DNA of 64,000 nt, from positions 15,187,001 through 15,251,000 of the forward strand of contig CM073321.1 in the NCBI GenBank assembly GCA_037043015.1, written 5' to 3'. Shown piece by piece: positions 6,301-53,462 of this stretch. Both the position numbers and the translations under genes were made by a program. This DNA is from Bryum argenteum. Taxonomy: Eukaryota; Streptophyta; Bryopsida; Bryales; Bryaceae. Positions within the stretch are counted from its first letter, which is position 1. The number at the start of each line of letters is the position of its first letter. The notes beneath the pieces were generated by a model, which saw only the letters and a list, made by a program, of their open reading frames with translations, was not told the origin of the DNA and ran no database searches.

Positions 6301-6450
6301 ACAACCCACCAGCTGCATCGCCACGGCGTTCTAGGGGAGCCTTGAGTACCACAGGTCGTAGCACACCTCAATGCAGAGAATCCATCGTCACCAACAAGAG
6401 TGAGGCAGATTTTACGATGAAGTAGGTGTAGGGTTTACTCGAATCCATAC

Positions 6451-7570: not shown

Positions 7571-7574
7571 ATCT

Positions 7575-7745: not shown

Positions 7746-8005
7746 ACAGTCAAAAACAAAGGGTACATATTCACGTCATAATATCTAATTCTTTCAAGTA
7801 AGTCATAAATATGCACACAAAGTAAATTAACACCAAAAACATATGTATTCGTTATAATTCTAAAAGTACAAACTAAAGGCTCACATGTACTTAACTGAGA
7901 CCTACAAGTACTAAATTGGCGCCCGCGAGTACTAACATGGCATTTAGTCTTGGATTCGTATATGTCATGGAACTCTATAATATCATAAGTTCTACCTACT
8001 TCATA

Positions 8006-8512: not shown

Positions 8513-9367
8513 CTCAATAGTCCGCCCGAATTCGGTAGGACATCATCGTCTATCGTGGATATCGTATCCGTCAAGGTCCCGATCGTCGCCGCTAAAGTTT
8601 TTCTCATCGCGCTTCCGCAGCACTACGCCCTGCGCTTTAGAATTACCAACTTGATACCACCCGCTTTCTTCTTCTTTCTCGACCAATTTCCTTTCCTCTC
8701 TCACTCTTTGCTAGCGTTTTTCGTCCATGTCGCTTGCAATGAGAGAACTTATCACTCGATGCACCTAACGAGTCCTAGTGTTCTTCGTGCAAATGAAGAG
8801 GTCGAACTATGATTTTCAACTCCAATATATTAGTATCTCTTGCGGTCAGAAACCCTAATCGCCCACCGTGTAATCCCTAACACCCCGTAATGACCGTGTT
8901 TGACAAATCAAAATAAGCTTACTTTGGGACGCATCTATTATCCAACTAAATTTCGACAATGACGGCCCGCCGTCACTTTACCGTGATACACTTACTTATT
9001 TTGTTGGGGATCTCCTATTTAAAATCCTAAGTACTTAAGGCAATTATGGCGATCTTGATATTTTAAGTCTTTGTAAGTAACGTGTTTTCAAATTGTCATG
9101 CTCACGATTGAGTGTCTAGTATCCGTATGTTGTCTTTGTATGAAATTACGTTTTATAGGTGTTCATGACGTATTCAAATACGTTAAACCAAATTCACATA
9201 TTTGAACTTTCAAACGCACCTCCGACTCTCTTTCTCTCTCTTCACTTGTTGATGTTTTCTTCCTCGCTTGCATCTATCATGGCATCCGCCGCTCCCCCGC
9301 TCCACTACCAACGCTATCGCCATCGGTCCGAAGACTTAAGTCCCCCATCCGCATTCCTTCAGGGTCG

Positions 9368-34782: not shown

Positions 34783-34790
34783 TGTGTCGC
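34783..34790. repeat. 8-bp target-site duplication, left copy
   Basis: TGTGTCGC directly precedes CAGGGATGTCA. The identical 8 bp follows the other end at 53455-53462. Eight bp is the duplication length made by hAT transposases. Confidence 0.95.
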
Positions 34791-34818
34791 CAGGGATGTC
34801 ACAGCGTCCGGACGTCCG
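34791..34818 (+). repeat. hAT terminal inverted repeat, left
   Basis: Starts CAGGGATGTCACAGCGTCCG and continues GACGTCC. It matches the reverse complement of 53427-53454 over the first 11 bases and again over CCGGACGTC, with a small offset between. Confidence 0.9.
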
Positions 34819-34899
34819 GCAGGGTTCCGGGGACCGTCCGTGACTTAGAGATTCTGGTTGTTTTACTAAGGGTAAATGACCAACCGGGTGCGTTCATTG

Positions 34900-35095
34900 G
34901 TCGAACCACCTCGTCGACCGGTCCCCGAGCTCGCCGTCGGCCCAACCGACCGGTCAACGGGCCAGGGCGACCGGCCGTCGGCCGCGGGTGACCGGCCTTG
35001 GGTCCGGCCGTCGGCCCGGGCGACCGGCCGTCTGTCCGGCCGTCGGCCCGGCCGACCGGCCCTCGCATCCGGCGACCGCGTATGGCCAGATGGCC
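34900..35095. repeat. G+C-rich GACCGGTCG-type block upstream of the transposase
   Basis: Dense degenerate words CGACCGGTC, CGACCGGCC and CCGTCGGCC in an otherwise A+T-rich element. It lies between the left terminus and the transposase ATG at 35374. The sequence just after it, CATCCAACGGT, is also found at the outer edge of the right-hand block. A TATA-like GGTATATGAG is at about 35163. Confidence 0.8.
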
Positions 35096-35373
35096 CCTTT
35101 GAGCATCCAACGGTTTAGGAGCATTTCAATTTCAAATTGCAACGGTCATATTCAGAGTTAGATGGTATATGAGAGAAGAGACATTGAGTCTCACTTCACT
35201 TCCAAATTTTGAACACTTTCCAAGGGCTTTGAGCTGCATAATTCATTTTATGTGTACATTGCTTGGTAGGTATTGAGTTCGGAAGTGAAGATTTCCGTAA
35301 GGAACTTTTGCCATTTTTTTCCCCGTCACGGTCCCACCACTGTTTAAGACTTTGAGGCGTCCTATTTATCAAA

Positions 35374-38277
35374 ATGGGCCCTGCTCCACATGAGCCTTGG
35401 TTTAGAGACATCGAGAAGGAAGGCAAAGCGTCTGGGTCCTTCCTACAGTGCTCACTATGTCATGTAATTGTTTCGAAGAAGAAGAGTCGGAATTTGAGTC
35501 ATTATGGGTACGAGAAGATTCCTGGACATAGGGATTCAAGTTCTGCCCTTTGCCCAAAGCTGCCTAGGGAAATTAGGCAGTTATTTTTAAGATGTGGTGG
35601 GGAGTTCCCTCCATATAACGGAGAATTGGAACTATTTCTCGGTGAATGTTCTCTCACTCCATCCACGGACGTTCCAGGTGCTTCAAAACATGACATTCCT
35701 GAAACCCCTAGGAGTGACTCTTGTGTAGGGTCCTCGCTAGGCACCCCCATGAATTCAACAAATCTTTTGGTAGGGTCAACCTCTGCTTCTTCCATGCTTA
35801 TGAGGGGAATTAGGGATACTCGCCCGATGTTTGGATCTATGAAGCAAACGAAGCAATCTTCAATTGAAGCTACTTTTGCAGAAGCGGATAGGCGGGAGTT
35901 GGATAAACTCTAGGCGAAATTATTTTATGAAGCAAATATACCATTCTCAGTAGCCCGGAATGATGCGTTCAAAGCTGCCGTGATGAAGACTGCTAGATTT
36001 CAAAAATCCTATGCTCCACCATCTTACCATAACATTCGGACAAGGTTGTTAGGAGAAGTAAAGACGGAGTTACAAAAGAAACTAGATAGTAGACTCTCGG
36101 AGAGCCTTCGGAAGTTTGGAGGAACTTTGACTATGGATGGATGGTCATCTGTGACTAGTCGCCCTTTGGTGAATGCGATGCTCGTGACTCAAGCTGGAGA
36201 GCTTTTTCTTGGTGCTGTGGATACTACTGGCATAGAAAAAACAGCGGTGTACATGTCATCTCTCATGTTGAAGTACATAGAACAAGTTGGACCAGAGAAC
36301 ATTGTTCAAGTATGCACAGACAATGCTTCTGTAATGCTCAATGCCTCAAGAATAGTCTCTGAGAAATATCCGCACATTTTCATGCAAGGGTGTGCGACAC
36401 ATGCAATGGACTTGTTGTTGGAGGATTGGAGAAAGGCTGGATGGATGGCGAATACTTTGGTCATGGCGAAGAGAATGGTCAAGTTTATTAAGAGGCGACA
36501 AATGCCCCTAGCTGTGTTTCGTAAACACGAGGCGAAATTCAGCCTACTGATGCCTGGGAAAACAACATTTGCTAGTCAATTCATAATGATAGATCGCTTG
36601 TTGGAGGTCAAGGAATCATTGGAGCAAGTTGTTGTTGACCCTATGTTCACAGCCTATGCCTCGCAGAAGACGGTATCTGCTAGAGATAAGCTTATATTCT
36701 CCCGTAAGGTCAAGAAGGTGGTGTTGAGCGATGACTTTTGGGAGCAATGCAAAAGACTACGGGATATGGTTGCCCCCGTAGTGTACGCTCTGAGAGAATT
36801 CGACGGCAAGGCTCCTAGTACGGGCAAGGCTTAGCATATCATGCGTGATCTTGAAAGACATGTCTATACTTTGCACGCACCGTCCATCTCATTGGAACCA
36901 CTTGAGGTGGCCACCGCAAAAGAGGAGTTTTACCATCGGAAACGGCTCATGACAACGGATTTACATGGCGCGGCTGCACTTTTAAATCCTTATTTACTAC
37001 ATGACCAAGAGTTAGCTGACGATCCCGATCTTACAATAGCTTGCAAGCGTGTTTTACAAAAATTATGTCCCGCGGAGGATTATGCAGACGTGGTGAGTGA
37101 ATTTCTTGCGTTTCGAGTAAGGAGTCCACCATTCCATGACGTGCTGGAGCCTAATACTCAAAAACTAGCTCCACATGCATGGTGGGAGTTTGAAGGTGCT
37201 TGTGCTAAGCTCCTCTCTCCAATTGCAAAACGAATACTAGCACAGACCGTGTCCTCGTCGGCTTGCGAACGCAACTGGAGTAGCTACTCTTATGTTCACG
37301 ACAAGAAACGGAATCGGTTACTACCGGGTAGAGCTGATGACTTGGTCTACATATATTCCAACTCGAAATTGCTCGCGAATGATAAGTTGAGTGATGATGG
37401 GCGGTGGTATAGAGAGAACTTGGATTTAGAGGAAGACCAAGTACATGAGAATGATGAGGAAGCTGTCGAGGATGAATCAGAGTCTGATGACAATGATGTT
37501 TTTGAATTTGGTGATGAAGACGATGATATGACTTTCTTCCCCGCTTCAAATGATGAAGATGCTCTAAATGTTCATGATGCTAATGGTGATTTTATCGCTC
37601 ATGGTGTTTCGGCGGATGATCTAGATGATGAGCAGCCGTTAGCACGGTTAATGACACAAGGCGGCATGGACAAATCGAATAATGTCCTACCTGTTATCGC
37701 TACTGGTTTACTGTTGGAAAAGGAGGCGATAGATGTGAAGACCACTGCGTGCAACACTACTGCGGGCACTATGAGCTCTGATCCGGTCGCGGAGAATATC
37801 GCATCCGGTAGTAAGGATCAAGTATCTGATCAATGTGCTACTCCTTGCGCTTTATTTCAACCCTCTACTACAAGGGTTACGACAACCTTGGAGAAATCCT
37901 CTATGGGTTTAGTATCCCTTTCAAGAGCCAAATATGGGAGCATCTCTAGTGACTCTGATGTACCGTTGGGCAGGTATTTAAAGAATGCCAATGTTCTTCG
38001 TACTGCCACGGGGTTACAGCACATGCTTGGCACTTCCAAGTCGCATAAACGGAAATCTGCAACGGTTCCAATTGTTCCGCCTAAAAAACCGAAGATCCCT
38101 GTTAATCTCCCCGAATTTGATACTTGGCATAAGTATGGGAATATACAATGTCCAGAGAATAAACCCAAGATCAAAGAGGAGGTTCCAAGCGATTATGAAT
38201 ATGATCCTACGGGGTCTAGTGGAGCTGAAGTGAAGGGAGATAGCAATTATGAGCAATCCTCTGGTCCTGATGAGTAG
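35374..38277 (+). pseudogene. hAT transposase with two in-frame TAG codons
   Basis: One frame of 968 codons. The N-terminus has a BED-like zinc finger (QCSLCHVIV...LSHYGYEKIPGH, about residues 28-58). DUF659/hAT core: TMDGWSSVTSRP with Asp about residue 255, and VCTDNASVMLNA with Asp about 316. The hAT dimerisation region has SSACERNWSSYSYVHDKK (Glu about 632) and RNRLLPGRADDLVYIYSNSK. An acidic C-terminal tail of about 300 residues ends with SGPDE. TAG codons at 35911-35913 (DKL*AKLFYEA) and 36832-36834 (TGKA*HIMRDLE) interrupt an otherwise conserved frame, and CAG to TAG would explain both. It is 583 bp inside the left terminus, the expected place for the element's own transposase. The ATG is the first in frame. 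Confidence 0.88.
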
Positions 38278-39009
38278 TTGAATTTGGCATCTTTATGTAG
38301 TATAGGTTCATAGGACTTATACTTATTATAGAAATTGTAGCTATAGTTTACTGTAGTACTTTATTGTTATACTCCAAATGCATTTGGAGATTCTATTGTC
38401 TACATGACTACATTTAATGTGTTGAAAAATATTACATATATTTTTACATACTTGTCGTACGATAGTCTTGACTCTCAAGTATACAAAAGAAATGCACATT
38501 AACACTAGGACCGATAACATATGTGTTACGCTTATAGGGCTGAAACACACCTATCTTTTTCTTGTGCTTTGAGCCTAAACCCTTGATGTTTCTACATCAA
38601 TGGTCTGTATACATTGCCTAGCAACTATTTTGATTGATTAGACCTTGTTGATGTGGGATATGACCCACAACTTTGACCAATCAGAACTATCCATTTTGAA
38701 CCATTTCCAGAATCTCATGGCGTACTCATTTCACTCCGTATGAGTGCATCAAAAGTATGTTCTATTGGTATATTGTTGTTGTAGCTATTTTAGGCAAGTT
38801 GTTAGGAAGTGCTACACCAAAGTCTAAGTCATTTTGTGCAACCAATGAACCTCCACCCTATGGATAAGCTTATATGTTACAGATACGGTAGCAATCGGTC
38901 CTAGTATTAAATCAAAAAGATTGTAACCCTTTACTTCAAAAATAAGGCACCATCGATCAATGGTGGCATTTTCATCATTTTTAAAACAACAACCATACAA
39001 TCTAAAAAA

Positions 39010-39104
<95 letters not shown>

Positions 39105-39229
39105 TATACGTGCAACTTAAGGTCCAACATCCGTTCTAGCTTCAAACTGAAGATCCATCCGATTGGCCAATCTGAGCTACACTACGAGTACGCGGTCTTT
39201 GACTTGGACGGGCAATTCGACCGCCCTCT
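38278..39229. other. Non-coding between transposase and RING gene, with (TA)n
   Basis: Both flanking genes converge here, so this holds their 3' ends. A pure (AT)n tract runs from 39012 to about 39100. No further gene is seen. Confidence 0.7.
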
Positions 39230-42200
39230 TCATACTCTCGATCGACCACGCGATTTTCCTCTCATCTCCGCCTGCCAACTATCCTCCCCATCTTCGCCCG
39301 ATTGGCTCTTCCGCTTTTTGCTAGGATCCACTTGTTTGTTACGTAAGATTTCCATGGCCTTCTCGATCTTTGCAACGACATCCTGTACAACACCTTCAAA
39401 CTCATCCAATAATAGAAGTTGTGTGTCTTTTGGGTTTAAAAGACATTCTCTCCAAAATGAAATGGCGTCATCGATACGCACATCAAACTTCTTCACCGCA
39501 TCCCAATAAGAGACCTCCACATCTTCAAAAGAATTTTTCGGTATCGAAGTCCGGTATATTGCGGCCTCCTCCAATTTTGCGAGTACCACAGCTCTTCCAA
39601 TTGGAGTATGATCGTACTTCTTGTACTCCTCACCAAAGTTGGTTGAATCGGATATTTCGTGCCACGAACCATCTTCTCCCTTTTCCACTTTCTTTGGAGG
39701 AAATCGAAAGAAACGGTTGTGTTCAACGCTCCAATGCCCTCCGAAATTACGACAAAACAACTCTCGTTGCTCATCACCTTCAATATTCCTCGCCCTGATC
39801 TCTATTTCGTAATCTCGTGTCATCCAAAATAACTGATCATGATCCCCACCAAATTGAATGGCTAGTTGGTGTTTTGATTTTGACGTACTCTTCTCAAGTG
39901 CATTTCCCCAATTAGAATAGTTTAGAAATTTCTTTGGGTATTGATCCAATGGAAGATTCCATCGGTTGAACTCGTGCCCTGGTGGCATCAGATCTCGTAT
40001 GCCCATCATCTCATAGAATCTCGTGCTAAATGGGGAGCGACATATTGGACATACCGATTTTGTCATTGCATATCGGCATATGCAAGTAACATGAAAGTTA
40101 TGGTCACATTGACCCAACGTGTATGCGCCCTCTGGATCAAAATTATGTAGGCACACCGCACATTTGTCTTTAAGTATTGCGGGAGGAGGGTCGCATGTGT
40201 TGATTACAATGCAAGCTGACTCTTGTAGGTGGGATGAGAATCTACTATACGCCGCCCATCCTTCCTCTATCTCCATAGTCCAATCAACATCATTGTTTCG
40301 TCCCATCTTAGAGTAGTTTGTACGCTCCATCATCTCTTCAATATCCCCCCAAAAAGTGACCTCTATGGGGTCATATCGTTTTTTCGATCTGTTCGTACAG
40401 AACTTCTCCAATGAAGCATCTACAACTTCACGTGATTCCTTTGATGTAGATGCAATCGATTTCAGATCTTCTTTTGCCCTCGAAACCAAGCTCCTCCTAT
40501 TTTGAAGTCGATGAACCCATCCCAACCATGGTAGTTTGCGTAGGTGGATTGTTGCCTCTGTAGAATCTACCGTTTTGAAGGTTTTCCGTAATGCCTCCAA
40601 TTCAGCGACTGCCTCATCTCTCTCTTTACTTGTAGCCTCCAACTTCATTGAGCATGCTTTTGCTTCCTCCTCCAATTTCGCAACTGTAACATCCCTCTCC
40701 TTCTTCACTGCCGCGAACTTCATCGCCCATGCTCGTTGTCGCTCAATCTGTCCATCATCTATCTCCTTTTGTGATATTAACTTCAATTCCCCCGAAATTT
40801 CATCATCGTCATCATCGTCTATTTCGATAATGGTTTTTTCCTTATCTTCTTTACCATCCTCTTCACCAACCTCTCTGAGAGGAGATAAACCCCTGATATA
40901 GGTCTGTCCCTTATCTTCTTCACCATCCTCTTTACCACCCCCATCAATTTGTGAAAGAAAAAGACTATGAGAAGTCCCGATAATGGTCTTCCCCTTATCT
41001 TTATTACCATCCTTCTCACCATCCTCTTTACCATCGTCTTTACCACCCGCATCACATTCTGGAACAACATGACTACATGAAGCCCCCTGAGTGTCATCCT
41101 GTGTTGGAAAGAAGTTTAAATACTTATATCGGTTATCTTCTAAGTCTTCTACCGCCTGCCTTTGGCGCATTGCTTCTTCGTACTTTGCCACATACTCGCT
41201 AGCAGGACCTTGGCCAAACAACCGCAATTCCTTGTAAAACTCGTCAAGGAGACGTTGCGTAATTCGGTGTTGTTTCTGCAGTTTCTCAATGATTAGCTCA
41301 TTCTTCGCTCGCTCATTCAGTAGAGGGTGGAATCGATCTATGATTGCCTCATAATTCACCGCAGCTTGTAGAATGTTAGGCAAGATCCTTGCCAAAGCGT
41401 CACTCATTGTCACAAAACCGGGAGATATAGTAGCAAGTCTTTCTGACGCCTCTTTCAAGTCGAGGCCTAGAGCAACTATTGCACCGCCTGAGGCTTTATG
41501 CCTATCCTCCCCTGGCAAACTTTGGTCTTTATCTACCTCATTGCACCAATCAGCCATCATTTCTGCGGTTTTCAACCACTCCACCAATCTCTTATTGCTT
41601 GGTACCGTATGCAGATAGTCCACGAAATTTTCCACCATACCCGAATCTGTATGCATGACATCTATGGCATCTGTAGGTGATCTGATTTCCCGTGGTTCAC
41701 TTGGCCCTGCCTCCTCTGATGTTGGTACCGGGGTTACACTTGGCCCTGCCTCCTCTGATGTTGGTACCGGGGTTACACGAGGTTCTTCAACTACGTTTGC
41801 ACCTTCGAGCCTATCAGTTATAGTTGGTTCTACGATTGGGGCATCCGTGGCAACCGTATTCCTTCCATCCTCCTGATGTGTCGTGGTTGTTGGAGGAGAA
41901 TCCTTCTCCGCCGTCTCATGAGTTTTCCTCCTCAAGTACTGCAATAAGGCCTTTGTAGAGTTTGATTCTGAATCAAACCTATCAGGGATACCCTTTTGAT
42001 TTCTCCCGATTCGAAGAGGATGTGCACTACTCGCCGTGAATGTGCTCCAGTTCACCTTGCGCTTCAATATGAGCTCAGCATACACCATGCTCAAGAGCGT
42101 ATAGGAAAAATAACCCTTGCTCTTGGGAGGAGTTCCAAACAGTGCCACCCAAACTTCTTCAGCACGATGAAGGAAGTGATCATCCTTGCATGTTTGAGGG

Positions 42201-42532
42201 TTGCAAGTAAAATTATTGGTATTAACTTTGTGACATTCTCGAGGCCAAAGTTTCCCAATGTGATACATCTTCACATATTTCTTGCACGTCGCCATTCTCC
42301 AGTATTCCTCCGTTTCATTGGCCCAACCGCTCTCAGCTTTGATGGCCTCATTATCCAAGATCTCGTAGTGCAACTCATGTCTCGCTCCTTTTGGTTTCAC
42401 TCTCTTTAACGGTGTCTCATGTAAAACCAACTCAGTCCCCACCAATCCTACGTTTGTGTTTTCTGTCGCAGGTGACCTCAAGGTCTGTTCAGAATCAGCT
42501 TCCATGTTCGTGTTATCGATATCCGTCGCCAT
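39230..42532 (-). CDS. RING-H2 protein with N-terminal KKYVK/MYHI domain (transposon cargo)
   Basis: An intact 1,100-residue frame from the ATG at 42532 (MATDIDNTN) to TGA. I prefer this start because upstream codons fall in untranslated-looking DNA after a TATA-like box. About residues 65-165 hold the domain shared with the gene at 48322 (CKKYVKMYHIGKLWPR, TCKDDHFLHRAEEV, VYAELIL...W). A Ser/Glu-rich linker has a doubled VTPVPTSEEAGPS and repeated KEDGEKD-type acidic units. A coiled coil lies at about 590-660. A RING finger at about 790-835 reads CAVC, then CDHNFHVTC, then CPIC, that is C-H-H-C order. About 260 further residues are unrecognised. The RING suggests ubiquitin-ligase activity; its target is unknown. 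No introns and no stops. Confidence 0.85.
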   Translation of the reverse strand: MATDIDNTNMEADSEQTLRSPATENTNVGLVGTELVLHETPLKRVKPKGARHELHYEILDNEAIKAESGWANETEEYWRMATCKKYVKMYHIGKLWPRECHKVNTNNFTCNPQTCKDDHFLHRAEEVWVALFGTPPKSKGYFSYTLLSMVYAELILKRKVNWSTFTASSAHPLRIGRNQKGIPDRFDSESNSTKALLQYLRRKTHETAEKDSPPTTTTHQEDGRNTVATDAPIVEPTITDRLEGANVVEEPRVTPVPTSEEAGPSVTPVPTSEEAGPSEPREIRSPTDAIDVMHTDSGMVENFVDYLHTVPSNKRLVEWLKTAEMMADWCNEVDKDQSLPGEDRHKASGGAIVALGLDLKEASERLATISPGFVTMSDALARILPNILQAAVNYEAIIDRFHPLLNERAKNELIIEKLQKQHRITQRLLDEFYKELRLFGQGPASEYVAKYEEAMRQRQAVEDLEDNRYKYLNFFPTQDDTQGASCSHVVPECDAGGKDDGKEDGEKDGNKDKGKTIIGTSHSLFLSQIDGGGKEDGEEDKGQTYIRGLSPLREVGEEDGKEDKEKTIIEIDDDDDDEISGELKLISQKEIDDGQIERQRAWAMKFAAVKKERDVTVAKLEEEAKACSMKLEATSKERDEAVAELEALRKTFKTVDSTEATIHLRKLPWLGWVHRLQNRRSLVSRAKEDLKSIASTSKESREVVDASLEKFCTNRSKKRYDPIEVTFWGDIEEMMERTNYSKMGRNNDVDWTMEIEEGWAAYSRFSSHLQESACIVINTCDPPPAILKDKCAVCLHNFDPEGAYTLGQCDHNFHVTCICRYAMTKSVCPICRSPFSTRFYEMMGIRDLMPPGHEFNRWNLPLDQYPKKFLNYSNWGNALEKSTSKSKHQLAIQFGGDHDQLFWMTRDYEIEIRARNIEGDEQRELFCRNFGGHWSVEHNRFFRFPPKKVEKGEDGSWHEISDSTNFGEEYKKYDHTPIGRAVVLAKLEEAAIYRTSIPKNSFEDVEVSYWDAVKKFDVRIDDAISFWRECLLNPKDTQLLLLDEFEGVVQDVVAKIEKAMEILRNKQVDPSKKRKSQSGEDGEDSWQAEMRGKSRGRSRV

Positions 42533-42726
42533 GAAGAATAGGGAGTATTTAAAATACCCCGAAGATATCCCAAGTATGCAAAAATTCGATCGCGGCACCG
42601 CAAGAGTATCACGCCGACTTCCCCCACACCACAAATGCAAAGACACGAGAAGCTAATGCCCACGGTTGCAGCTCAGTTGAGATGGATGAATACAAGGAGA
42701 AGTGAGGGGAAATGAGGCCCCAAAGG

Positions 42727-42737
42727 CCTTTTATCCC
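42727..42737 (-). promoter_or_regulatory. TATA-like box of the RING gene
   Basis: The minus strand reads GGGATAAAAGG, about 195 bp upstream of the ATG at 42532 and just downstream of the G+C-rich block, the same order as at the other two cargo genes. Confidence 0.5.
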
Positions 42738-42764
42738 CCCTCCTTCCCAACCCTAGAGACCGGT

Positions 42765-42998
42765 CGCTCGACCAATCACGGCCGCGACCGATGCTGGCCG
42801 GCCGATCCAGCCGACTGATCGTGGCCGGTCAATCCGGTCGACCGATTGGGGCCGGCCAATCGCGGCGGGCGTTCTCGCCGGCCGGTCGGTTGCCGCTGAC
42901 CGCCGCGATCGGCCGACCGATGTGGCCGGCCGATCGTGGCCGCTCGATGTCGGCCGACTGATGCCGGTCGACCAACGCGGCCGACCGATCCGGCGGCA
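42765..42998. repeat. G+C-rich GACCGGTCG-type block upstream of the RING gene
   Basis: Alternating GGCCGGCCGATC, CGACCGAT and GGTCGACC words in about 230 bp, bordered by poly-A/T and (TA)n. It sits just upstream, on the minus strand, of the RING gene's TATA-like box. Confidence 0.85.
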
Positions 42999-43062
42999 TT
43001 GCTTTTTTTTTTTAATTTTTTTAAAAATAAATAAATAAAAAAAATAAATAAATAAAATAAAT

Positions 43063-43065
<3 letters not shown>

Positions 43066-43119
<54 letters not shown>
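43066..43119. repeat. (TA)n microsatellite
   Basis: An uninterrupted TA run of about 50 bp beyond the 5' side of the RING gene. A similar run at 39012-39100 lies beyond its 3' side. Confidence 0.95.
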
Positions 43120-43124
<5 letters not shown>

Positions 43125-44010
43125 GTTCGTAGATCTTACAAAATTGCAAAGGATCCTTTTTTATTTCGCAAAGATTTTTGTTATTTGATTCTCAGTGATT
43201 ATCACACACTGAAAAAAGGAATCCTATGTTGATTTCTGAAATGCAATATATTATTTTTTCTCTTATACATCTTAACTCTAAATTTTAAGTTCATAACCAT
43301 TTTGAGTGGACTCTTTAAAGTGTAAATCTTCACAAATTCATAGATGTTTCAAACATTAGGCATTCATTTGGTTTCGAATCAATATCTTTCTTCTCTATTT
43401 TCCTTTTGTAAATTAATTGACCATTGGCTTCATGAATCAAACTTTGAACCACATGACCGACAACAGTAACTCTATTCCAATATTGCATGGTTGAGAATGT
43501 CAATTGGAGTATCCTCATCTTAATGTAGGACACTTATTTTGGAACAACGTCATTTGGTGAAAAATAGGCTATGAGATTGAAGATTCTATAATCCTAAATC
43601 CTATGTTGAATGTTCAATGTTCAATATTGTACAAGTATATTTATTGCAATAAATGTGTGATTTATTCCATGTCAATAACATCTTCATCAAAAATGATAAA
43701 TACAAAATAGATTATTTTGCACATATTAAGTATGCAATGTACAGTACTACAATTGTTATCCATTTAAAATATAACTTAGAACTACACCATACATACACGA
43801 GTCCAATATTTCCCTTCCACACACAATGGTGTTTGCAAAGCTTTGCAACACCAAAACTAGAATTAAAATGAATTCTATCCCAAAATCCCAAGATCCTAAA
43901 CCGTAATCCGTAAACCCTGTACCATAGAGGCCTAAAGAGTTATTCATACATCCTAAACCATAAACCACAAATCCTATCCACAAGTGATTTTATCCACTAG
44001 ATACTCTAAA
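43125..44010. repeat. Module B, first copy (duplicate at 45150-45990)
   Basis: Shared phrases occur in order in both copies: GGATCCTTTTTTATT, AGGAATCCTATGTTGATTTC, GTGTGATTTATTCCATGTCA and AAATACAAAATAGATTATTT. This is a direct duplication of about 850 bp with scattered differences. No coding content is recognised. Confidence 0.85.
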
Positions 44011-44496
44011 TGAAGAAGAGATGCCTATTTAAAATATTATATTTTCAAAACAATCAATCGAAGGAAGAGTTAATTCGGAAATTACTAGAAATTGTGAAGA
44101 TTATTTTTGTAATCTCTCAAGGCAACCCTTGTGAAATTGACAAACATTTTGACTTGGGTCACTTTGGAACTCAAGTAGTAAATTGTTCATGAACATATTT
44201 CCAAAAAAGAATTTCAAACAAAGACTAGATTTAACTGCCCTTAATGGACTTCAGACCTAAATATTCTAGATGTAGGTTGTAAATTTGGAATTTGGATATG
44301 CAAATTTTACCACATGCACTTTGCGGTGTAAGGAGCACCTAGAAAAATTTAATAAAAAATTATTACTTTTGACCTCTTCATATAAGCTGCCCGAAATAGG
44401 AAACCTCCACTTTGGTGTCCATGGATCTTTAGGGGTTAAGAAGGAATATTTTAACAATAATAAATTAAGGTGTACAATCAAAAGCATGGTCTCCAA

Positions 44497-45075
44497 CTTC
44501 TAATGAGAATTGGCCCCATGGCCTTTGCTTTCCTTATAGACAAGGGCATCAACTCCCAATGCCTTCACAAATGAGAAAATTGACCACACTATATTGATTG
44601 TTAAATGTTTACTCCGATTCAAACCAATTGGGCACAACAACTCAAAAAGTGAGTGTATTGGCGTGGAGATTTGCTCGCCTTAACTCCCCTTGAAGAGAGT
44701 CCCTTATTATGGATTTATTTAAAGCCGAGAGTATCTTTGTCATAAAACATTCTCGCTTGGGACAAAGAGATATTCCCGACATTCTCTTGTCAGAAAATTC
44801 CTTGTCCATATTTAGACGCCACGTGGATCATACAGGCTAAATATAGTAGTTTTGAAAATGCAGGTATGCAACGCGAGGAAGTGATCGAAGTTGTGCAAAC
44901 GGGGAGTTTTGGGGAGAGGCAAGAGGAGGAGGGGGAAGGGGGGACGCGGAAGGAGCGACCGACCGGTCGCCCGGGGGACGTGGTCCGTCCCCAGACCGGT
45001 CGCCGGTCGCCGGGCCGGTCGCCGGACGCCGGGCCGGTCGCACGCCCGCCCGATGGCGGCCAACCGACATGGGCG
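44497..45075 (+). repeat. Module A plus G+C block, first copy (duplicate at 47350-47900)
   Basis: The stretch from GAATTGGCCCCATGGCCTT through GACGCCACGTGGATC to the G+C-rich start GACCGGTCGCCCGG is repeated nearly base for base at 47350-47870, where it leads into the cargo gene at 48322. The first copy has a shorter G+C block (44955-45075) and no gene after it, so it looks like a duplicated, gene-less promoter. A CACGTG G-box core is present at about 44820. Confidence 0.85.
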
Positions 45076-45149
45076 GCCGCTGTACAGTTTTTTATTTATT
45101 TATTTGTTTTATTTTTTTTAATTTTTTTTTTCTTAAATATATAACTAAA

Positions 45150-45990
45150 ATCTAATAAAATTGCATAGGATCCTTTTTTTATTCCTCAAAGATTTCTGTT
45201 ACTCGATTTTCAGTAATTACTACACAATAAAAAAAGGAATCCTATGTTGATTTCTGAAATGCTAAGTATTCTTTTTTCACGGATACATCTAAACTTTAAA
45301 TTTTAAGTTCATAACCATTTCGAGTGGACTCCATAAAAGTATAGATCTTTTGGAATTCAAAGATGTTTCGTACAAATACTACTTCAGTACTCATACGTTA
45401 TGATCTATGAGGCTCTATGAATTAAACTCTGAGCCACATGACTTACAATAGTAACTCTATTCCAATATTGGTTAAAAATAGGCTATGAGATTGAAGACTC
45501 TGGAATTATTATTCGTATGTTGATGTTGAATATTGTACCTATATATTCTCTGCAATAAATGTGTGATTTATTCCATGTCAATAACATCTTCAATCAAAAA
45601 TGATAAATACAAAATAGATTATTTTGCACACATTAACTATGCGATGTAGAGAAGTGCAACTTGTATCCATGTAAGATATAATTGAGAACTACACCATACA
45701 TACATTAATCCATTATTTTACATCCACACACAATTGTGTTTGCAAAGCTTTGCAATACAAAAACTAGGATTAAAATGAAATCCACCCCAAATCCCCAAGA
45801 CCATAAACCCTAAACCCTAAACCCTATACCCTAAACCCTATACCCTAGAGGCCTACATAGTAATTCATACATCTTTAACCAAGAACTTAAAGTTTATCCA
45901 CAAGAGAATGTATCCATTACATACTGTAAATGAAGAAGTGATGGCTCTTGAAAATATTCTATTCCCAAATCAATCAATCATAGTATACGA
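45150..45990. repeat. Module B, second copy, with telomere-like CCCTAAA run
   Basis: Second copy of 43125-44010. At 45803-45850 it contains a run of TAAACCCTAAACCC and ACCCTATACCCTA. In the first copy the matching part is more degenerate. The run resembles the plant telomere unit but is short and internal. Confidence 0.8.
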
Positions 45991-47349
45991 ATAATCAATT
46001 TTATATAACATCTAATCTTAGTACTAATGTACTATACGTGTACAATATCAAATATGCTTAAAAATTTAGAAGTTGATGCCATTATTGCCATATGTTAAAC
46101 ACTTATAGGGTGGGATATTTTTTAAAATTTATTTGTCTCCCTATTTATTTCTCTTATTTTATGATTGCAAAAATAGTAACAATGAAAACTTATTTCGATT
46201 ACCTTTGTAAGAGGAAAATAAGTAACTATTCAAATCCATACAATAAGAATAATGCTACAATTAATTATATGTACTAGATTAATTATATACTCCTAGGTTA
46301 GTTGAAGGTTGTTAAACAAAAAATAGCGAATAATAGAAATAATTGTTTATGCACCGTATTTTTTATAATAAGTTCTACTAATTAGAATACACAACGATGG
46401 AGTAATTTCCAAATACCCATCAATTAATATAGACCATACAATGTGGAAAAGTTAAGGCCCAAATAGAAAGTCTAAATATTGACAAACTCAGTAAGACCAA
46501 AGTTATGAAAAGTAAATGCTCACACATGGTCACCTACATTTCATATATACTCGGATCTCTCCAATGTTAGACATCAATATACTCTCACCAAGGAATAGGT
46601 AAAATTTATGGAATGTAATCAGAGGGGATTTAGAGCCACCTCAGGGTACACAGTAGGGGGCAAGTCATGAATGGGGGCCAAAACATGGCAAAATCTCCTA
46701 GTGAGAATGGATAACTTTTGACAAAAGTTGGAAGATAGAAGAAATGAATGTGAATCCATGGGAGCTTGCAATACTAGCACTCACCACTATGAACTATGGT
46801 GAAACCACCTAAAGGCGGGAGGCAAAGATTCTTGCCTTTATAAAGATCTCACCTCCCTTGCATTTACCTCATGCGTACATATTTAGGGTGGCCGCCTTTA
46901 GGCTTCTCCTTCTAAAATTTGTATTTCTTCATGTGTGTGCTTTAAAAAAGCACATAAATAGGGTTAGCTTGTCTTTTTCTGTTTTCTATCCGTGAAAAAT
47001 AGTAACCCACTCCTTTCTCACACCAAGTATATAGATTCCCTCAATTTTCCTTAAGTGTACGAGAATAGGTGGTTTCACTATAAAGGGGCTATGTCCAATA
47101 TTTTTGGATATAGTTTATAATTTCAACCATAGGATCTTGAGTAGACTACCATATGTAGTAGTGTGAAATCTTCAACCGTTGGATCATCACTAGATGCGAG
47201 ATCATAAGATTTGAAATTGAATATGAAACATTTTTTGGCTGTGACGATAAAAGACGAAATGGTGGCCATGGTTGTTAAGGTGTTAGGGAAGAATAATTCC
47301 AAAAAATAAAAAATAAAAAATAAATGTGTACAAATAAAAAACATGGACT
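45991..47349. other. No recognisable gene, inside the hAT element
   Basis: A+T-rich spacer between module B and module A of the second unit. No supported frame. Confidence 0.5.
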
Positions 47350-48175
47350 CTAGTTAATAATAAGAATTGGCCCCATGGCCTTGGCTCTCCTTCTAGACAT
47401 GGGCTTCAACTCCAAAGGACTTCACGACTCGGAAAATTGGCCCCACTAAATTGGTTGTTAAATGTATTGTCCAGTTAAAGCTAATTGGGCAACATAACTC
47501 AAAAAGTGAGTGAATTGGCTTGGAGATTTGTTGGCCTTCACTCCTCTTGCAAAGAGTCCCTTATTATAGATTTATTTAAAGCCGATAGTATCTTTGTCAT
47601 AAAACATTCCCGTTTATAACGAAAAGACATTCCCGACATTCCCTTGTCAAAACGTTCCCTATCCATATTTAGACGCCACGTGAACCAAACAGGCTAAATA
47701 TAGTAGTTTTGAAAATGCAGGTTTGCAACGCGGGGAAGACATCGAAGTTGTGCAAACGGGGAGTTTTGGGGAGAGGCAAGAGGAGGAGGGGGAAGGGGGA
47801 ACGCGGAAGGAGCGACTGACCGGTCGCCCGGGGAACGTGGGCGGTCGCCAGCCTGGTCGCCGGTCGCCGGCCCGGTCGCCGTTCGCCAGGCCGATCGACC
47901 GACCGGTCGCCGGTCGCCAGTCGGTCGGGCGGACGGCCGCAGTCGGCAGGCCGGCCGGCGGGACGTCGCCGGCCGCCGGATCGGTCGGCCGGGATCGGCG
48001 GCCCCGATCGACCGATCGGCGGCGCGCGCCATCGGGCGGCCCGATGAACCGATCGGACGTCGACCCGATCGGTCGTCGTCGCCCGCCCCGTCGCCGCCGC
48101 CGGATCACCGATTGACGGTGCCGCCGGCGGATCGGACGTCCATCTGCCTACCGCCAATGGCGTCCGATCCCGGTC
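47350..48175 (+). repeat. Module A plus large G+C-rich block, second copy, upstream of the 48322 gene
   Basis: 47350-47812 repeats module A. 47813-48175 is a G+C-rich block (CCGGTCGCCGG, CCGATCGGTCGG, GGCCGGCCGGCGG). Reading frames on both strands are open through the block only because stop codons are rare in such sequence. Confidence 0.85.
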
Positions 48176-48178
48176 GGC

Positions 48179-48185
48179 ATAAATA
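48179..48185 (+). promoter_or_regulatory. TATA-like box of the cargo gene at 48322
   Basis: ATAAATA follows the G+C-rich block directly and is followed by GGAGGGGAGGGG, about 140 bp before the ATG. Confidence 0.55.
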
Positions 48186-48321
48186 GGAGGGGAGGGGCTC
48201 ATTGTCCTCACTGGTGAACGGGTCAGACGTTGCGGCTTTTTTTAAAGTCGCATCGATCATAGTTACTCGAGTCCGCGTGGATCACCCACGCCCAGTCTGT
48301 GCATACTTGTCGCTGCTGGGA

Positions 48322-49539
48322 ATGGCGCCGAAGTTTTCACGTTCGAGGGGCGAGGCCAAGTCTCCACGACCAAAGGGCGACCCTCCTAAAATGGATTGGG
48401 AAGCATGGAGTGACCCAAACTGTGTTGCAGAGCCGGGTTGGCGAGAGGAGAGGGCGGACATTTGGAATTGCACCATATGCAAGAAGTACGTGAAGATGTA
48501 CCACATAATGAAGTTATGGCCGCGGCACCAAGCAGAGAAATATGGTCCTCGTCGCGAAGGCCCAGTGAAGAGTTGCAAGAGCGACCATTTTGCGCACAGA
48601 TATCATGAAGTCACAATTGCGGTTGGAATCAAGAACACAAGGCCAGAATTGATGTTGTATTCTACCATGGCCATGGTGTGGGCTGAAATAGTCCTTCACA
48701 AGGACATTGACTGGACCACTGTGATAGGTTTGAAGGTGCATTTATTGGATCGCAACAACCGATTCATTTCCACAAATTGGATGGGACCAAGCGATTGTTA
48801 TACTACTTATTCAGACCGTTCAGCTGATATGGATGCCCAACTTCAACAACATGGAACTCCAAGGGCATATGGGGGCACTCAGCAAGACAGAAGCCATGAC
48901 GATCGTCAAGCACCAGTATCCTTTGGCACAGGAAGTGAGGGGTATTACCATGGAAACCACCAATTCAGTACTCCGGTGAGTTATATGCCACCTCATCAGC
49001 AAAACATGTACGGAGCCGAACGCGAGTACGGTAGAGGTGGATCTAGTTCGAACTACCCATCTCCAATGTATACAGGAGGTACACATGGTTTAGGAGGTGA
49101 GGAGGGTAGCGGATCCAATGCTCAATGCAACTCAAGCCCAACTCATCCTATAAACCCATACAATCGTGGGAACCAATACGGTACAACATTCGGAAGTCCC
49201 GAGTACCGTAGGCCATCACACCCGAAGGAAACATACGAGTATGGAGGTTAATATAATAGAAGATCAGACATTGTTGGCTACACAAATTATGGATATGGTC
49301 AGAATGCATACGGAAGTAACGACCTGCCTTCAGCACCTTTCCTATCTCCTTAGGACGAAGAGGCGAGGTACCAACGAGATCTGCAACAAGCCACACTTCT
49401 AAGTTAGCAGGAATACATTGAACAGCTTGAAGCCGAAAGAAACTTTAGGCAAACGTACTTGTTTGGAGAATCTTCTCGAGGACCACCTTCTTACGGCGCT
49501 GCGCCAAGCCGTAAACATGATGATGAAGAATCGGATTAA
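48322..49539 (+). pseudogene. Cargo gene: KKYVK/MYHI domain plus Gly/Tyr/Asn/Gln-rich tail, three in-frame stops
   Basis: Start MAPKFSRSRG at 48322; it follows the TATA-like box. Residues 40-131 form the domain shared with the RING protein: WNCTICKKYVKMYHIMKLWP, SCKSDHFAHRYHEVTIAV and MVWAEIVLHKDIDW. Cys50, Cys53, His61, Cys85, His89 and His92 could bind zinc. A low-complexity tail rich in G, S, Y, N, Q, H and P follows and looks disordered. The first stop is TAA at 49249-49251 (309 residues), but the same composition and frame continue through TAG at 49351 and 49405 to TAA at 49537, ending KHDDEESD. All three early stops would be CAA/CAG with one C-to-T change. Either the product is the 309-residue form or the gene is newly inactivated. 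An intron ending ctccttag (49353) is possible but breaks the frame. Function unknown; possibly DNA-binding. Confidence 0.7.
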
Positions 49540-50921
49540 GAATGACAAATCATCATACATAGTGTCATTATAGTGAAGATTATGTTGTTTTTTGCAACGG
49601 ATAATGTCTACACTATTATCGCCTTGCTAGGGGCCAATTTTGAGGATAATGAAATCCATATTTTGTTTGCGAATGGATTATCCGAATATCGGACTATATT
49701 ATTATACATTAGGGCAATGGTAAGCTTGGGGTATCACTTTTTGGACACACTAATTAGGTTATTTTTATTGAAAGCCTCCAAAATTTGTCTAATTTAGTCA
49801 TTTTAATCAAGTAAAAAGACCCTAAAATAGAAAATAAAATATCATGCACCTCACTGAAATCAAAGTATATATGCCTATAGATTTTCTTTTAGATTTTTTA
49901 TTTTTTTTGGATCCATTCATAGATGAGGGGAAAAGTGTTGAATTTGGGGATTTGCAGGCATTATAGTGCACAATGAATTAATTTTTTTATTATTAAATGA
50001 ATTATTTTGTATTCTATACAAGAAGATGTAGGTCATATTCAAAAATTATATTAAAATAAAAATGGTTGATATTCCATTTGCTTGATTCTATGGATTTTAG
50101 GTTATTGGGACATGACTTACTTTTTCAACTAAAAAATCAAATAAAATTACTTCAAAATATTTTTTTTAATTTTTAATTTTTTTTCTTGATACATTATAAG
50201 TATTGACAACTAAAACCACATCTAATGAAGTCTTATTGTATTACAGTTTAAAAATGGATATGTTTGTCACACCAGCATAGAGTGCAATTGTTCATGGGAC
50301 AACCTTTTTGGGTACCCCAACCAAACCATCACCCATTAATATACTATGCAATTTGTTATTTCAAGGATTTTATTGCAATGTCTTGTATTTTTACTATGAG
50401 TTCACTTGGTGGTAATAATTTCTTCTGTTTGGCTTTAAGCCTTTTTTCACAGTCTCACACTCTCACCTAACATATAATATGTTCATCAATCCATACAAAA
50501 AAAGGCATATGTAAGAAAAGTCATATTATGCTTGACTTGACTTCGGACAAACCATTAATATCGCAACTACGCAAGGTTGATGTAATGAAGAAGTTCCACA
50601 ATTCATTATATATTCTCAAATGTTGTTCATGAAGATTTGGAAATATTTCTATTGAAGGTAAGAAGTAATAAAATAAAATAACAAACAATGGAGAAGAAGT
50701 CATTCATTAGAATCATTGCAAGGTATATATAAACAAGAATGGAATTGAAGCCGCTACATATAGAAGGCATGTAATACATTTGACTACAAAAAATTTGCCT
50801 ACATCTACATGAGAACTTCAATGAAGAATCTAAAAATCTAATAAAGCCGCAAGTACTAAAAGAAATGCGCATAACTAATTTGCTAATCATACTTGGTGCG
50901 ATAATGATCATTTGGCACCGG
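49540..50921. other. Non-coding between convergent cargo genes
   Basis: A+T-rich 3' flanks of the genes at 48322 and 50922. No supported frame. Confidence 0.6.
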
Positions 50922-52373
50922 TCAATGGAATGATTCCATGAAGCGGTTGACAATGTGGGTCAGCGTATACTTTGCATCAGCGACCATCTCCAAGTATTGG
51001 TCAAAAGCATTTGCCAAGTCTTGATTTGACCACCGGTCAGGCCCCATTGTACTTTGGCAATTCTCGTAGGCCTTCGACATGCTCTTCTTGAGGATGCGTT
51101 GTGCTATTCGTGCCGTAGCAAACTCCTCCGAAGCGCAATCAAGAAGGGGAATAACGTGAATGTCATCACTCCGTTTGTACAAGTACGCCACCCGAAGATC
51201 TACCCAATATCGTGCTTGTAGAGTATCAATTCTCTCTTGGGGTTTTGTGAACGTATACAAGGACCTCATTTTATCATCCATGCTCGTGGTTAGCCCCCAA
51301 TCACATACTCCAATATACACCCGTGATTCATCTTGAGGGAAGTGAAGAAGTATGTTGTCTGGAGACACATCGTTGTGGAGGTAGTTCAACGAGTGGACTT
51401 CACACATGATATGCACTAAAGCCCAAGCAAGCTCTGTTCGTTTTTTGCGAAACCGGACCAACTGCCAAGCTCGAATAAGTTCATCATCAGAATGAGGTGA
51501 GAGTCCGATCTCTCCATGAACATCATCTCTATATCTTGCATCAAGGGCCAACATCGATTGAATCGTGCCGCCATTCCACCAATACGTATAGCCTTGGAAT
51601 TTATTTGCATGAATGGCTATAAAACAAATAACACGTGGATGTTGTATCCTCACAGCAAGCGCCTCATTCTGATGCTCCACCTTGGCCAAGTCTGGTCGTG
51701 TCACAGCATGGATGGGAGTCTTTGCAGCAAATTCCCAAAACTCTTCAATACCCACAACCCCTCTTATGTGAACTTTGGAAATTGTGCCGTATCCTCCTCT
51801 TAGAGTTCTCTTCTCAAGCTCGATGATACGGGCCGTGACAGGAATTACTATCAAATTATTCATGCGACCCAGCTCCATTAACCTTCCTTGTTCCGTGTGC
51901 CACCATCCTATGGAACCAACCCGGTTTTTATTATTGGAATACGGCCTCATCGCTTCTTGAAAAGCCTCCGCCCTCAATACCACATCCCTAAACTCCTCAT
52001 CACCCGCTCGACTGGTTCTCTCATACCTCTTCAATATGTCGACAGCGTTCCAGAGAGCATCAATTAATCTATCCTCCATCCAATCCGTAAAACCACGCTT
52101 ATCGGTCTCCGGTCTCCACACCGGATCTTGGAGCGCTTCCATCATGAATTCCATCATGTCGTCCTTGAATTTGGCCACAGCTTCCTCTTTGTATCTCACG
52201 TATTTGCTGAACAAACGTGGAAGACTGTTAGCCTCATAAAATCGCACGATTACATTCTCCCGAAGAAAGTTCTTGCACTTATTGGATGGGTGCTCCCACT
52301 TCTCAAGATGTCTAAAAGGCCTTGGTCTCCGGCCTCGATTCCCCCCATTGCCCCCAGCTCCATGTTTGGGCAT
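50922..52373 (-). CDS. Divergent protein-kinase-like protein (transposon cargo)
   Basis: An intact 483-residue frame from the ATG at 52373 (MPKHGAGGNGGNRGRRPRPF) to TGA. The frame is open further upstream, but only through G+C-rich repeat and past a TATA box, so I reject the longer start. Residues 1-185 are unrecognised. The kinase-like part: glycine loop RGGYGTISKVHI (192-203), likely Lys218 in FAAKTP, a hinge near YWWNGG, catalytic loop HNDVSPDN (333-340, with Asp335 and Asn340 kept and the usual Lys replaced by Ser) and metal motif DWG (358-360) for DFG. The core Asp, Asn and Asp residues remain, so activity is possible. No transmembrane segment is obvious. It is the rightmost gene of the hAT element and intronless. 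Confidence 0.8.
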   Translation of the reverse strand: MPKHGAGGNGGNRGRRPRPFRHLEKWEHPSNKCKNFLRENVIVRFYEANSLPRLFSKYVRYKEEAVAKFKDDMMEFMMEALQDPVWRPETDKRGFTDWMEDRLIDALWNAVDILKRYERTSRAGDEEFRDVVLRAEAFQEAMRPYSNNKNRVGSIGWWHTEQGRLMELGRMNNLIVIPVTARIIELEKRTLRGGYGTISKVHIRGVVGIEEFWEFAAKTPIHAVTRPDLAKVEHQNEALAVRIQHPRVICFIAIHANKFQGYTYWWNGGTIQSMLALDARYRDDVHGEIGLSPHSDDELIRAWQLVRFRKKRTELAWALVHIMCEVHSLNYLHNDVSPDNILLHFPQDESRVYIGVCDWGLTTSMDDKMRSLYTFTKPQERIDTLQARYWVDLRVAYLYKRSDDIHVIPLLDCASEEFATARIAQRILKKSMSKAYENCQSTMGPDRWSNQDLANAFDQYLEMVADAKYTLTHIVNRFMESFH

Positions 52374-52539
52374 CTTTGTGAAAAAGAAAAGCAAAATCTC
52401 CCCCCTTACAAACGGAAAGACTTCTTTCCTCCCCAGGATAAGGAGCCAGTGGATGAAAATTAAAAAAAATTCCAACCTACAGCCACTCCGCACCTTGAAA
52501 AGGAAGGAAAGAAGTGAGGAGAGTGGAGGACCGGTCGGC

Positions 52540-52550
52540 CTTATATAGGC
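52540..52550 (-). promoter_or_regulatory. TATA box of the kinase-like gene
   Basis: The minus strand reads GCCTATATAAGG, about 170 bp upstream of the ATG at 52373, at the inner edge of the G+C-rich block, followed by CTCCTCACTTC-type pyrimidine-rich leader. Confidence 0.7.
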
Positions 52551-53290
52551 CGCGGTCGCATGGCCGACCGGCGACCTAAATCGGACGGCCAATGGCCGAC
52601 TGGTTCGACCGACGTCGGCCGGCGCCCGACCCGCCCGGCCGTCGGCCATGGCCGACCAGACCGTCGGACGGCCCGGCGCCAGACCAACAACCGATCGGAC
52701 GGCGGCGCCGACCAACCAACCGATCGGCCGACCGACCCGACCGATCCCGGCCCGACCGACCCGACCGATCGCCGGCCCGACCCGACCGATCGCGTGGCCC
52801 GACCCGACCGATCGCGGACCCGACCCGACGCCGGCCGGCCGACCAGCCGATCGCCCGGCCGACCCGACCGATCGCCGGCGGTCGACCCGACCGATCGCCG
52901 GCCGACCCGACCGATCGCGGCCCCGACCCGACCGATCGCGGCGGCCCGACCCGACCAATCGCCGGCCCGACCGACCCGACGGCCGGCCGACCCGACCGTC
53001 GCCGGCGGCCGACCCGACCGATCGCCGGCGGCCGACCCGACCGATCGGCCGACCGTCGGACGGCCGACGGAGACCGCGACCGATCGGACGGCCGACGGAG
53101 ATCATGACGACGGTCGGTCGGTCGGCCGACGCCGACCGGGCCCATCCGACGGCCGATCAAATCGCGACCGATCGGACGGTCGGCGTCGATCAAGCGACCG
53201 TCGATCACCGCCGCGACCGATCCGACGGCGTCGACCGGTCGGTCGGCAAGGCCAATCGGACGGTCCTGGGCCGCCCGATTCAATCCAACG
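52551..53290. repeat. Largest G+C-rich block, GACCCGACCGATCGCCGG units
   Basis: About 740 bp made of 18-23-bp degenerate units around GACCCGACCGATCGCCGGCC. It is subterminal to the right end of the hAT element and upstream of the kinase-like gene. Frames of over 200 codons are open on both strands with Pro/Thr/Arg/Asp-type repeats, an artefact of the composition. Confidence 0.9.
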
Positions 53291-53426
53291 GTAATCACCT
53301 AGACTCACAAATTTATTTGAACGGCTACGATGCGACTTTCAATACGATCTGACGGTTAAAAAATTTACTACATGCATAGTAATTCCGATTTACCCCCCGG
53401 ACGGACGTCCGTCCGACCAAAAAAAC

Positions 53427-53454
53427 CCAAAAGACGTCCGGATTGACATCCCTG
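53427..53454 (-). repeat. hAT terminal inverted repeat, right
   Basis: The minus strand starts CAGGGATGTCAATCCGGACG. It is followed inward by the palindromic GGACGGACGTCCGTCC (53398-53413). Confidence 0.9.
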
Positions 53455-53462
53455 TGTGTCGC
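53455..53462. repeat. 8-bp target-site duplication, right copy
   Basis: TGTGTCGC, identical to 34783-34790. Confidence 0.95.

Follow-up and report, generated by a model that had tools for sequence, protein, structure and literature searches.

Within a 64,000-nucleotide stretch of the Bryum argenteum genome (assembly GCA_037043015.1, contig CM073321.1, positions 15,187,001 to 15,251,000; "the window", whose own numbering is used below), the interval 34791-53454 is a single hAT transposon of 18,664 bp flanked by TGTGTCGC. It carries four genes, laid out as transposase (+), RING (-), KKYVK protein (+) and kinase (-), the third being named after a conserved motif. Because the same gene set recurs in every full-size copy examined and is under purifying selection, the three genes other than the transposase appear to be fixed parts of it. 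We conclude, with a probability of about 0.8, that this is a giant hAT transposon whose three extra genes are its own module and not captured cargo. An earlier reading of the window, made from the sequence alone (the sequence-only reading), had taken these genes for cargo of the kind found in giant fungal transposons, a view at odds with both the constancy of the set and the selection on it.

The ends of the element have the hallmarks of the hAT superfamily. The left terminal inverted repeat, CAGGGATGTCA, occupies 34791-34801, and the right one, which lies on the minus strand and reads TGACATCCCTG on the plus strand, occupies 53444-53454; these are the only two exact matches within the window. 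The repeat is 11 bp long, perfect and of the short CAGGG type. The flanking 8 bp, TGTGTCGC, are the same at 34783-34790 and at 53455-53462 (8/8), a target duplication. Starting from the first in-frame ATG at 35374 and running to 38277 on the plus strand is a transposase frame in which Pfam recognizes DUF659 (E = 1.8e-35, 122.3 bits) and, C-terminally, the hAT dimerisation domain Dimer_Tnp_hAT (E = 1.6e-12, 47.5 bits, cut-off 21.4), both found on pieces of the frame. The sequence-only reading had located these termini, the identical flanks and a hAT transposase 583 bp from the left end exactly where we find them. In the window the frame is broken by two in-frame stops, at 35911-35913 and 36832-36834, and each of ten aligned transposase copies has a stop or frameshift, so that most copies are decayed. 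Around the transposase region, open frames of 951-976 amino acids (aa) occur in several of the other copies, some of 965-976 aa without a stop inside the matched part.

The exact terminus occurs 616 times (290 + 326) in the 259 Mb of the genome, versus 102 times (51 + 51) for a reversed control pattern. Spacing between termini was counted over the first 100 listed, all on contig 1 (C1). Ten convergent pairs lay 15.9-19 kb apart, two of them with a common right end, giving nine elements; random placement of the termini yielded a mean of 0.35 such pairs and a maximum of 4 in 2000 trials, and divergent and same-strand pairs at this spacing numbered 0 each. Given the excess of termini over the control together with that of convergent pairs, the bracketing of the element by its termini is not a matter of chance. 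Not all 616 belong to this family, however: among the first eight listed termini, the match to the element continues past the 11 bases in four (L003-L006) and stops there in the rest; the latter, L001, L002, L007 and L008 on contig 1, are CAGGGATGTCA places without a deeper match to the element, and some may belong to another repeat with the same 11 bases.

Ten further copies were then fetched, comprising the eight others of the 15.9-19-kb class and two of the six convergent pairs at 19-35 kb; they were picked by the spacing of their ends and are not a random sample of termini. All ten are full-size, at 16.0-23.3 kb, with the same terminus at both ends. Over eleven copies, the window's included, the target duplication matched at 8/8 positions in seven, 7/8 in three and 6/8 in one. 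The sequence-only reading had proposed aligning the ends against the assembly, and this comparison returned other copies that share both ends, consistent with its view of a single, unusually large mobile hAT unit. It had also looked to such copies for different cargo between the same termini, an expectation that failed, since all ten hold the same gene set.

Insertion could be followed directly at several sites. For seven copies we joined the left and right flanks through a single target sequence and scored the best 40 of 658 candidate places in the assembly. All 40 fell on three of the seven copies (17.5, 17.0 and 23.2 kb), for which uninterrupted target sites are present elsewhere at 93-96% identity, as expected when a hAT element inserts into a site with one target copy; for the other four copies, none was found among these 40 of 658 places. 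In a nested case, a 17.2-kb copy at C1:11662875 sits 493 bp inside another family copy. The two parts of this host copy are broadly colinear with the window element and the far part is 90% identical over 2 kb, with the alignment at the junction blurred by a repetitive array. This locus (C1:11662282-11681800; L011, L012, L033) is a family member inserted in the GC-rich end array of another; the copy E_16963299 apparently also lies in similar GC-rich sequence, and such arrays may be preferred targets. The check for an empty counterpart of the window locus, made within the assembly, found only one paralogue that matches both flanks and has no element between them (L031, on contig 2), with 77% identity in both flanks and 470 bp of unrelated sequence in between. 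A second paralogue (L030) was rejected as an empty site, as it matches only the left flank and 3-4 bases past the junction.

The family also includes gene-less derivatives. Among the first 100 termini, three convergent pairs in all stand less than 6 kb apart (3,065, 3,246 and 5,008 bp), and each matches the element at its two ends. A blastn search detected no gene of the four in them, and most of their interior matches neither this subfamily nor the second one described below; they retain the ends and some array-like sequence. Since these derivatives have both ends and a target duplication of 8/8 in three of three, the ends suffice for movement in trans.

With the window proteins as tblastn queries, each of the ten other full-size elements yielded all four genes, and neither their relative order nor their orientation varied. 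One element, E_4953242, departs from this in content through an internal deletion: of its transposase just the final piece (429 of 480 codons) was recovered, and of its RING gene the part from about codon 496, which leaves two thirds of the transposase, on the N-terminal side, and some 495 RING codons at the start missing. For E_18972131 and E_9409540 part of the middle lay outside the fetched sequence, and the KKYVK gene of E_18972131 was seen whole elsewhere.

The same architecture extends to a second subfamily, represented by one fetched element (C1:35384206-35402504; L034, L035), chosen for a transposase 75% identical over the DUF659 part and an open frame of 972 aa. It is 18,299 bp long, with termini CAGGGTTGTCA and TGACAACCCTG and an 8/8 duplication, ACGTGGAC. 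Its four genes are those of the window element, unchanged in order and orientation and with 30-75% amino acid identity overall (transposase 43-75%, RING 39-70%, KKYVK 30-41%, kinase 44-58%), and arrays stand at the corresponding places. The kinase of this second element is 72% identical to the Ceratodon purpureus protein P0002, versus 55% for the window kinase. As P0002 is closer to the second subfamily, the two subfamilies probably split before the host moss and C. purpureus did; horizontal transfer is the alternative.

To measure selection, we used codon alignments of 10-11 copies and two non-coding controls (9-10 copies) read in an arbitrary frame; E_4953242 was dropped from the transposase alignment, and E_18972131 from KKYVK and the second control, for low coverage, and E_4953242 is also not among the rows of either control. 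Pooled pairwise ratios of non-synonymous to synonymous divergence (dN/dS) were 0.39 for the transposase, 0.48 for the kinase, 0.56 for KKYVK and 0.68 for RING, and 0.88 and 0.84 for the non-coding controls. These values replace a first set from tblastn alignments (0.50, 0.64, 0.58 and 0.60 for transposase, RING, KKYVK and kinase), in which frameshifted stretches had inflated the differences.

A sharper view comes from separating changes found in two or more copies (shared), which mark ancestors that spread, from those found in one copy only (single). For shared changes, the non-synonymous to synonymous ratio per site was 0.21 in the transposase, 0.25 in KKYVK and 0.44 in the kinase, with 0.94 in the non-coding controls. 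Within the RING gene it was 0.31 in the N-terminal KKYVK region, 0.32 in the C-terminal part and 1.19 in the middle. Against the pooled non-coding sequence, in tests that treat sites as independent, p was 1.8e-11 for the transposase, 3.5e-4 for KKYVK, 1.4e-3 for the kinase, 8.5e-3 for the RING N-terminal region, 2.6e-4 for its C-terminal part and 0.3 for its middle. Thus, purifying selection acts on the transposase, the KKYVK protein, the kinase and, at its two conserved ends, the RING protein. Single-copy changes were nearer neutral (0.68-0.80 in the genes, 0.89 in non-coding sequence), which fits a gene set maintained by the element rather than, site by site, by the host. The ratio in the RING middle exceeds that of the controls, not significantly (p = 0.3), and this part may be diversifying.

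The three extra genes encode proteins that are in part related to one another. The RING gene (39230..42532, minus strand, frame open, first Met at 42532) lies in a 1140-aa open reading frame (ORF) and encodes a KKYVK N-terminus, a long variable middle, and the RING with a conserved C-terminal region. Pfam assigns the RING to the RING-H2 type, its profile matches RING-H2 domains among solved structures, and the ligand positions are invariant in 9 aligned sequences. The KKYVK gene (48322..49251, plus strand) ends early in the window relative to many copies, with an open frame of 354 aa versus 430-452 aa in many of the others. Its protein had no Pfam match above the cut-off, and among 21 relatives no match scored better than E = 0.0094. 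Both proteins contain a KKYVK domain (CxxCKxYVKMxHLxKLWPR ... C ... HF), with 36% identity between them over 131 aa and an hhalign probability of 99.7; from its conserved Cys and His residues we read this domain as zinc-finger-like. The sequence-only reading had named three unrelated genes: all three are present, though the domain held in common makes two of them kin.

The kinase gene (50922..52373, minus strand) has an open frame whose MPK start, with its Met at 52373, is shared with relatives. Its identification as kinase-like in the sequence-only reading receives little help from Pfam (E = 5e-4, below the cut-off), and matches of its profile to solved structures are weak (best E = 0.0014). 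An alignment of 26 sequences gives better grounds: K237, E256, H/N/D352-354, N359 and D377 are conserved, all invariant except H352 (at least 90%). With the lysine, the glutamate, the HND aspartate, the asparagine and the DW(G) aspartate kept, the kinase is probably catalytically competent. The named relatives are two C. purpureus proteins, placed by locus tag on chromosome 3 (P0002) and on the V chromosome (P0036, KC19_VG055000), in keeping with a moss host. P0036 represents 126 member sequences, and the element family may be expanded in C. purpureus too. A further kinase relative (P0018), filed under a Bacilli metagenome-assembled genome, is probably moss contamination in the bin.

GC-rich arrays accompany these genes. 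The motif CGGTCG/CGACCG occurs 66 times in five stretches (2.25 kb in total, delimited by GC content) versus 2 times in the other 16.4 kb of the element, and the CpG observed/expected ratio is 1.36 in the arrays versus 0.74 elsewhere. Resampling the arrays by a first-order Markov model that kept their dinucleotide frequencies gave a mean of 12 motifs and a maximum of 30 in 500 draws. Four of the five lie directly upstream of the four gene starts. The left subterminal array, upstream of the transposase (34791..35140), has a GC content of 0.67 and 6 motifs, and a left-end cluster is present in all 11 copies; that upstream of the RING gene (42691..42990) has 8 motifs and that upstream of the KKYVK gene (47741..48240) has 13; the right subterminal array, upstream of the kinase gene (52491..53340), has a GC content of 0.72, a CpG observed/expected ratio of 1.54 and 32 motifs. 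Clusters of at least three motifs are found in 11/11 copies, 2-6 clusters each, with only the two end arrays in E_4953242.

The fifth array (44841..45090) has no adjacent gene; most copies, like the second-subfamily element, have a cluster at the equivalent position. Since the stretch adjoining it upstream (44476-44775) duplicates, at 82% identity, the stretch 47333-47632 upstream of the KKYVK gene, this array probably originated as a duplicate of that upstream region. A non-coding tandem duplication spans 43157..45979, in which 43157-44059 and 45175-45979 correspond in pieces that are 84-87% identical (families D8, D10, D14, D15, D18 and D19).

These features suggest how the three extra genes might serve the element as a regulatory and accessory module. 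The transposase, provided in trans by intact copies, would work on the ends of full-size and gene-less elements alike. Of the two proteins with a KKYVK domain, one is short and the other is fused to a RING E3-like module; both would bind the arrays or their chromatin and so maintain promoter activity of the element, for instance by recruiting ubiquitylation to dislodge silencing factors, and the kinase may modify the transposase or host factors of silencing and repair. By analogy, this would be an anti-silencing mechanism like that of the VANC proteins of Arabidopsis transposons, built from other parts; we advance it tentatively, at somewhat less than even odds.

Several observations weigh against a module of this kind. 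Gene-less derivatives move, so the genes are dispensable in cis. The GC-rich arrays at the ends of a hAT might serve as nothing more than binding sites for the transposase. The RING middle (codons 276-710), with its shared ratio of 1.19, bears no sign of constraint; over its full length the RING gene is indistinguishable from the non-coding controls (0.72, p = 0.24), and we divided it after viewing the alignment of relatives, with its two conserved ends and variable middle. The contrast between shared and single changes in the kinase has a p value of 0.06. The second-subfamily element has an open transposase frame, but its RING and kinase genes are in several broken frames. Lastly, AlphaFold models of the KKYVK and RING proteins had mean pLDDT values of 40.5 and 39.0, too poor to use, which leaves a DNA-binding fold of the KKYVK domain without structural support.

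The strongest alternative is that arrays and extra genes serve transposition directly and have no part in anti-silencing. TnpA of En/Spm, an accessory end-binding protein, offers a model for the KKYVK proteins here, with the arrays as subterminal transposase-binding sites and the kinase and RING protein setting the timing. The presence of arrays at both ends, and the ends and array-like sequence kept by gene-less derivatives, speak for such a role; the internal arrays before the RING and KKYVK genes, where end-binding by a transposase is not needed, speak against it. We regard this alternative as a serious one that nonetheless falls on the less likely side.

We consider it improbable that the three extra genes are genuine cargo, taken up from the host on one occasion by a hAT ancestor and selected for host benefit as in the Starships of fungi. 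Kinases and RING proteins are common types of host gene. Large gene-carrying elements are also known (PMC12477816). Yet the gene set is invariant over 11 copies and the second-subfamily element, apart from deletions and breaks, and on this ground we rejected Starship-like cargo; among the relatives found, which are mostly proteins without a name on short contigs but include the two named C. purpureus proteins, none is recognizable as a characterized host gene, and the single-copy changes, being nearer neutral (0.68-0.80), point to upkeep by the element and not by the host at the individual sites.

An integrated virus-like element using a hAT transposase would match the element in size and multi-gene content, which resemble those of Polinton-sized elements (15-25 kb, PMC6431247), but it is very improbable: a Pfam scan of the four gene products, shorter ORFs lying outside it, found no capsid, DNA polymerase, packaging ATPase or protease, and we rejected it on the lack of viral domains in those products. 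Profile scans for relatives likewise returned none in viral contigs (two scans, with kinase and RING profiles) or in genome contigs (kinase profile). A chance bracket of unrelated solo ends or small elements around an ordinary gene cluster draws on the shortness of the terminus (11 bp), its 616 occurrences and the half of the first eight places unrelated to the element, but the ten copies of like interior with 6-8 of 8 target bases matching, the empty sites and the nested copy led us to reject it as next to impossible.

Compared with known systems, the element is a member of the plant hATs (Ac/Ds, Tam3, Tip100) in its transposase domains and 8-bp duplications, and it differs from them in its 18.7 kb and four genes. 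Its CAGGGATG fits the plant terminal inverted repeat consensus [T/C]AGNGNNG given in a 2018 survey, which reports 7,144 bp as the longest of 276 plant hAT consensus sequences and no hAT detected in Physcomitrella (PMC6027215). The VANDAL transposons of Arabidopsis, whose transposase belongs to the Mutator-like superfamily and not to hAT, are similar in logic, not in membership: they too are plant transposons with accessory proteins and non-coding tandem repeats, whereas the accessory genes of the moss element encode kinase, RING and KKYVK proteins. A VANC-type anti-silencing system has an accessory protein that binds its own element's non-coding repeats and strips them of methylation; the counterpart seen in the moss element is the repeat arrays. 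In VANDAL elements the target regions of VANC form tandem repeats (PMC10398659). By this analogy, the accessory-gene logic of the moss element seems closer to VANDAL-type transposons than to gene-collecting giant elements.

Giant DNA transposons, some with accessory genes, are described in algae (KDZ, EnSpm and Sola-1), generally larger than 10 kb and reaching about 30 kb; they belong to other superfamilies, their accessory genes are mostly of unknown function, and the giants named in that account do not include hAT (PMC12477816). ToxhAT/ToxTA of fungi is a 14-kb multi-gene element once called hAT, but it is single-copy and now assigned to Tc1/mariner, on TA duplications (PMC12506042). Starships resemble the moss element as giant mobile units of eukaryotes, but they move by a tyrosine recombinase (PMC12506042), whereas the moss element has a hAT transposase, and they occur, with their accessory genes, in low copy number and at widely differing sizes (PMC10175614), whereas it has a fixed set in many copies. 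The Pfam scan of the four gene products contained no tyrosine-recombinase (DUF3435) captain, and variable cargo between related copies was not found in the 11 copies and one second-subfamily element. A review devoted to giant transposons does not use the word 'hAT' in its main text (PMC6431247), and no hAT of such size with conserved accessory genes was among the top-ranked literature matches, where an earlier description may have been passed over. Taken in full, the picture of a new lineage of giant multi-gene hAT elements in mosses, with a kinase/RING E3/KKYVK module that overrides silencing at CpG-dense promoter arrays, two old subfamilies of the same architecture (30-75% protein identity) and one heavily colonized, possibly sex, chromosome, is possible, though we would not yet call it probable. 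Should the extra genes indeed serve the element, kinase, E3 ligase and zinc-finger-like protein would together make up a new toolkit with which a DNA transposon of plants might overcome silencing, a possibility that moss lines are well suited to test.

The family is concentrated on contig 1, which at 44.09 Mb makes up 17% of the assembly. This contig holds 60/90 kinase, 97/131 KKYVK and 92/130 transposase rows (67-74%), counts of best-scoring candidates, with some copies in two pieces, and not whole-genome totals. It also holds 18/40 left-end rows (45%), where the 40 remain of 57 after 17 shorter second pieces of the same places were dropped. The density of the element on contig 1 relative to the rest is accordingly about 4-fold for left ends and 10-14-fold for gene matches. 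None of 23 proteasome-domain rows falls there, and contig 1 looks repeat-rich and gene-poor. It may be a sex chromosome. The putative sex chromosome of Niphotrichum japonicum is its largest, most repeat-rich and least gene-dense; counter to such a reading, the sex chromosomes of two Sphagnum species and of two Hypnales are their smallest chromosomes (both from PMC10619864). Contig 1 is also a natural experiment for asking why elements of this kind build up on a single chromosome.

Two long AT-dinucleotide tracts also lie within the element, at 39012-39105, downstream of the transposase, and at 43044-43124, upstream of the RING gene. Outside it, the window has a strongly negative GC skew (-0.22 to -0.27) at 6001-10000.

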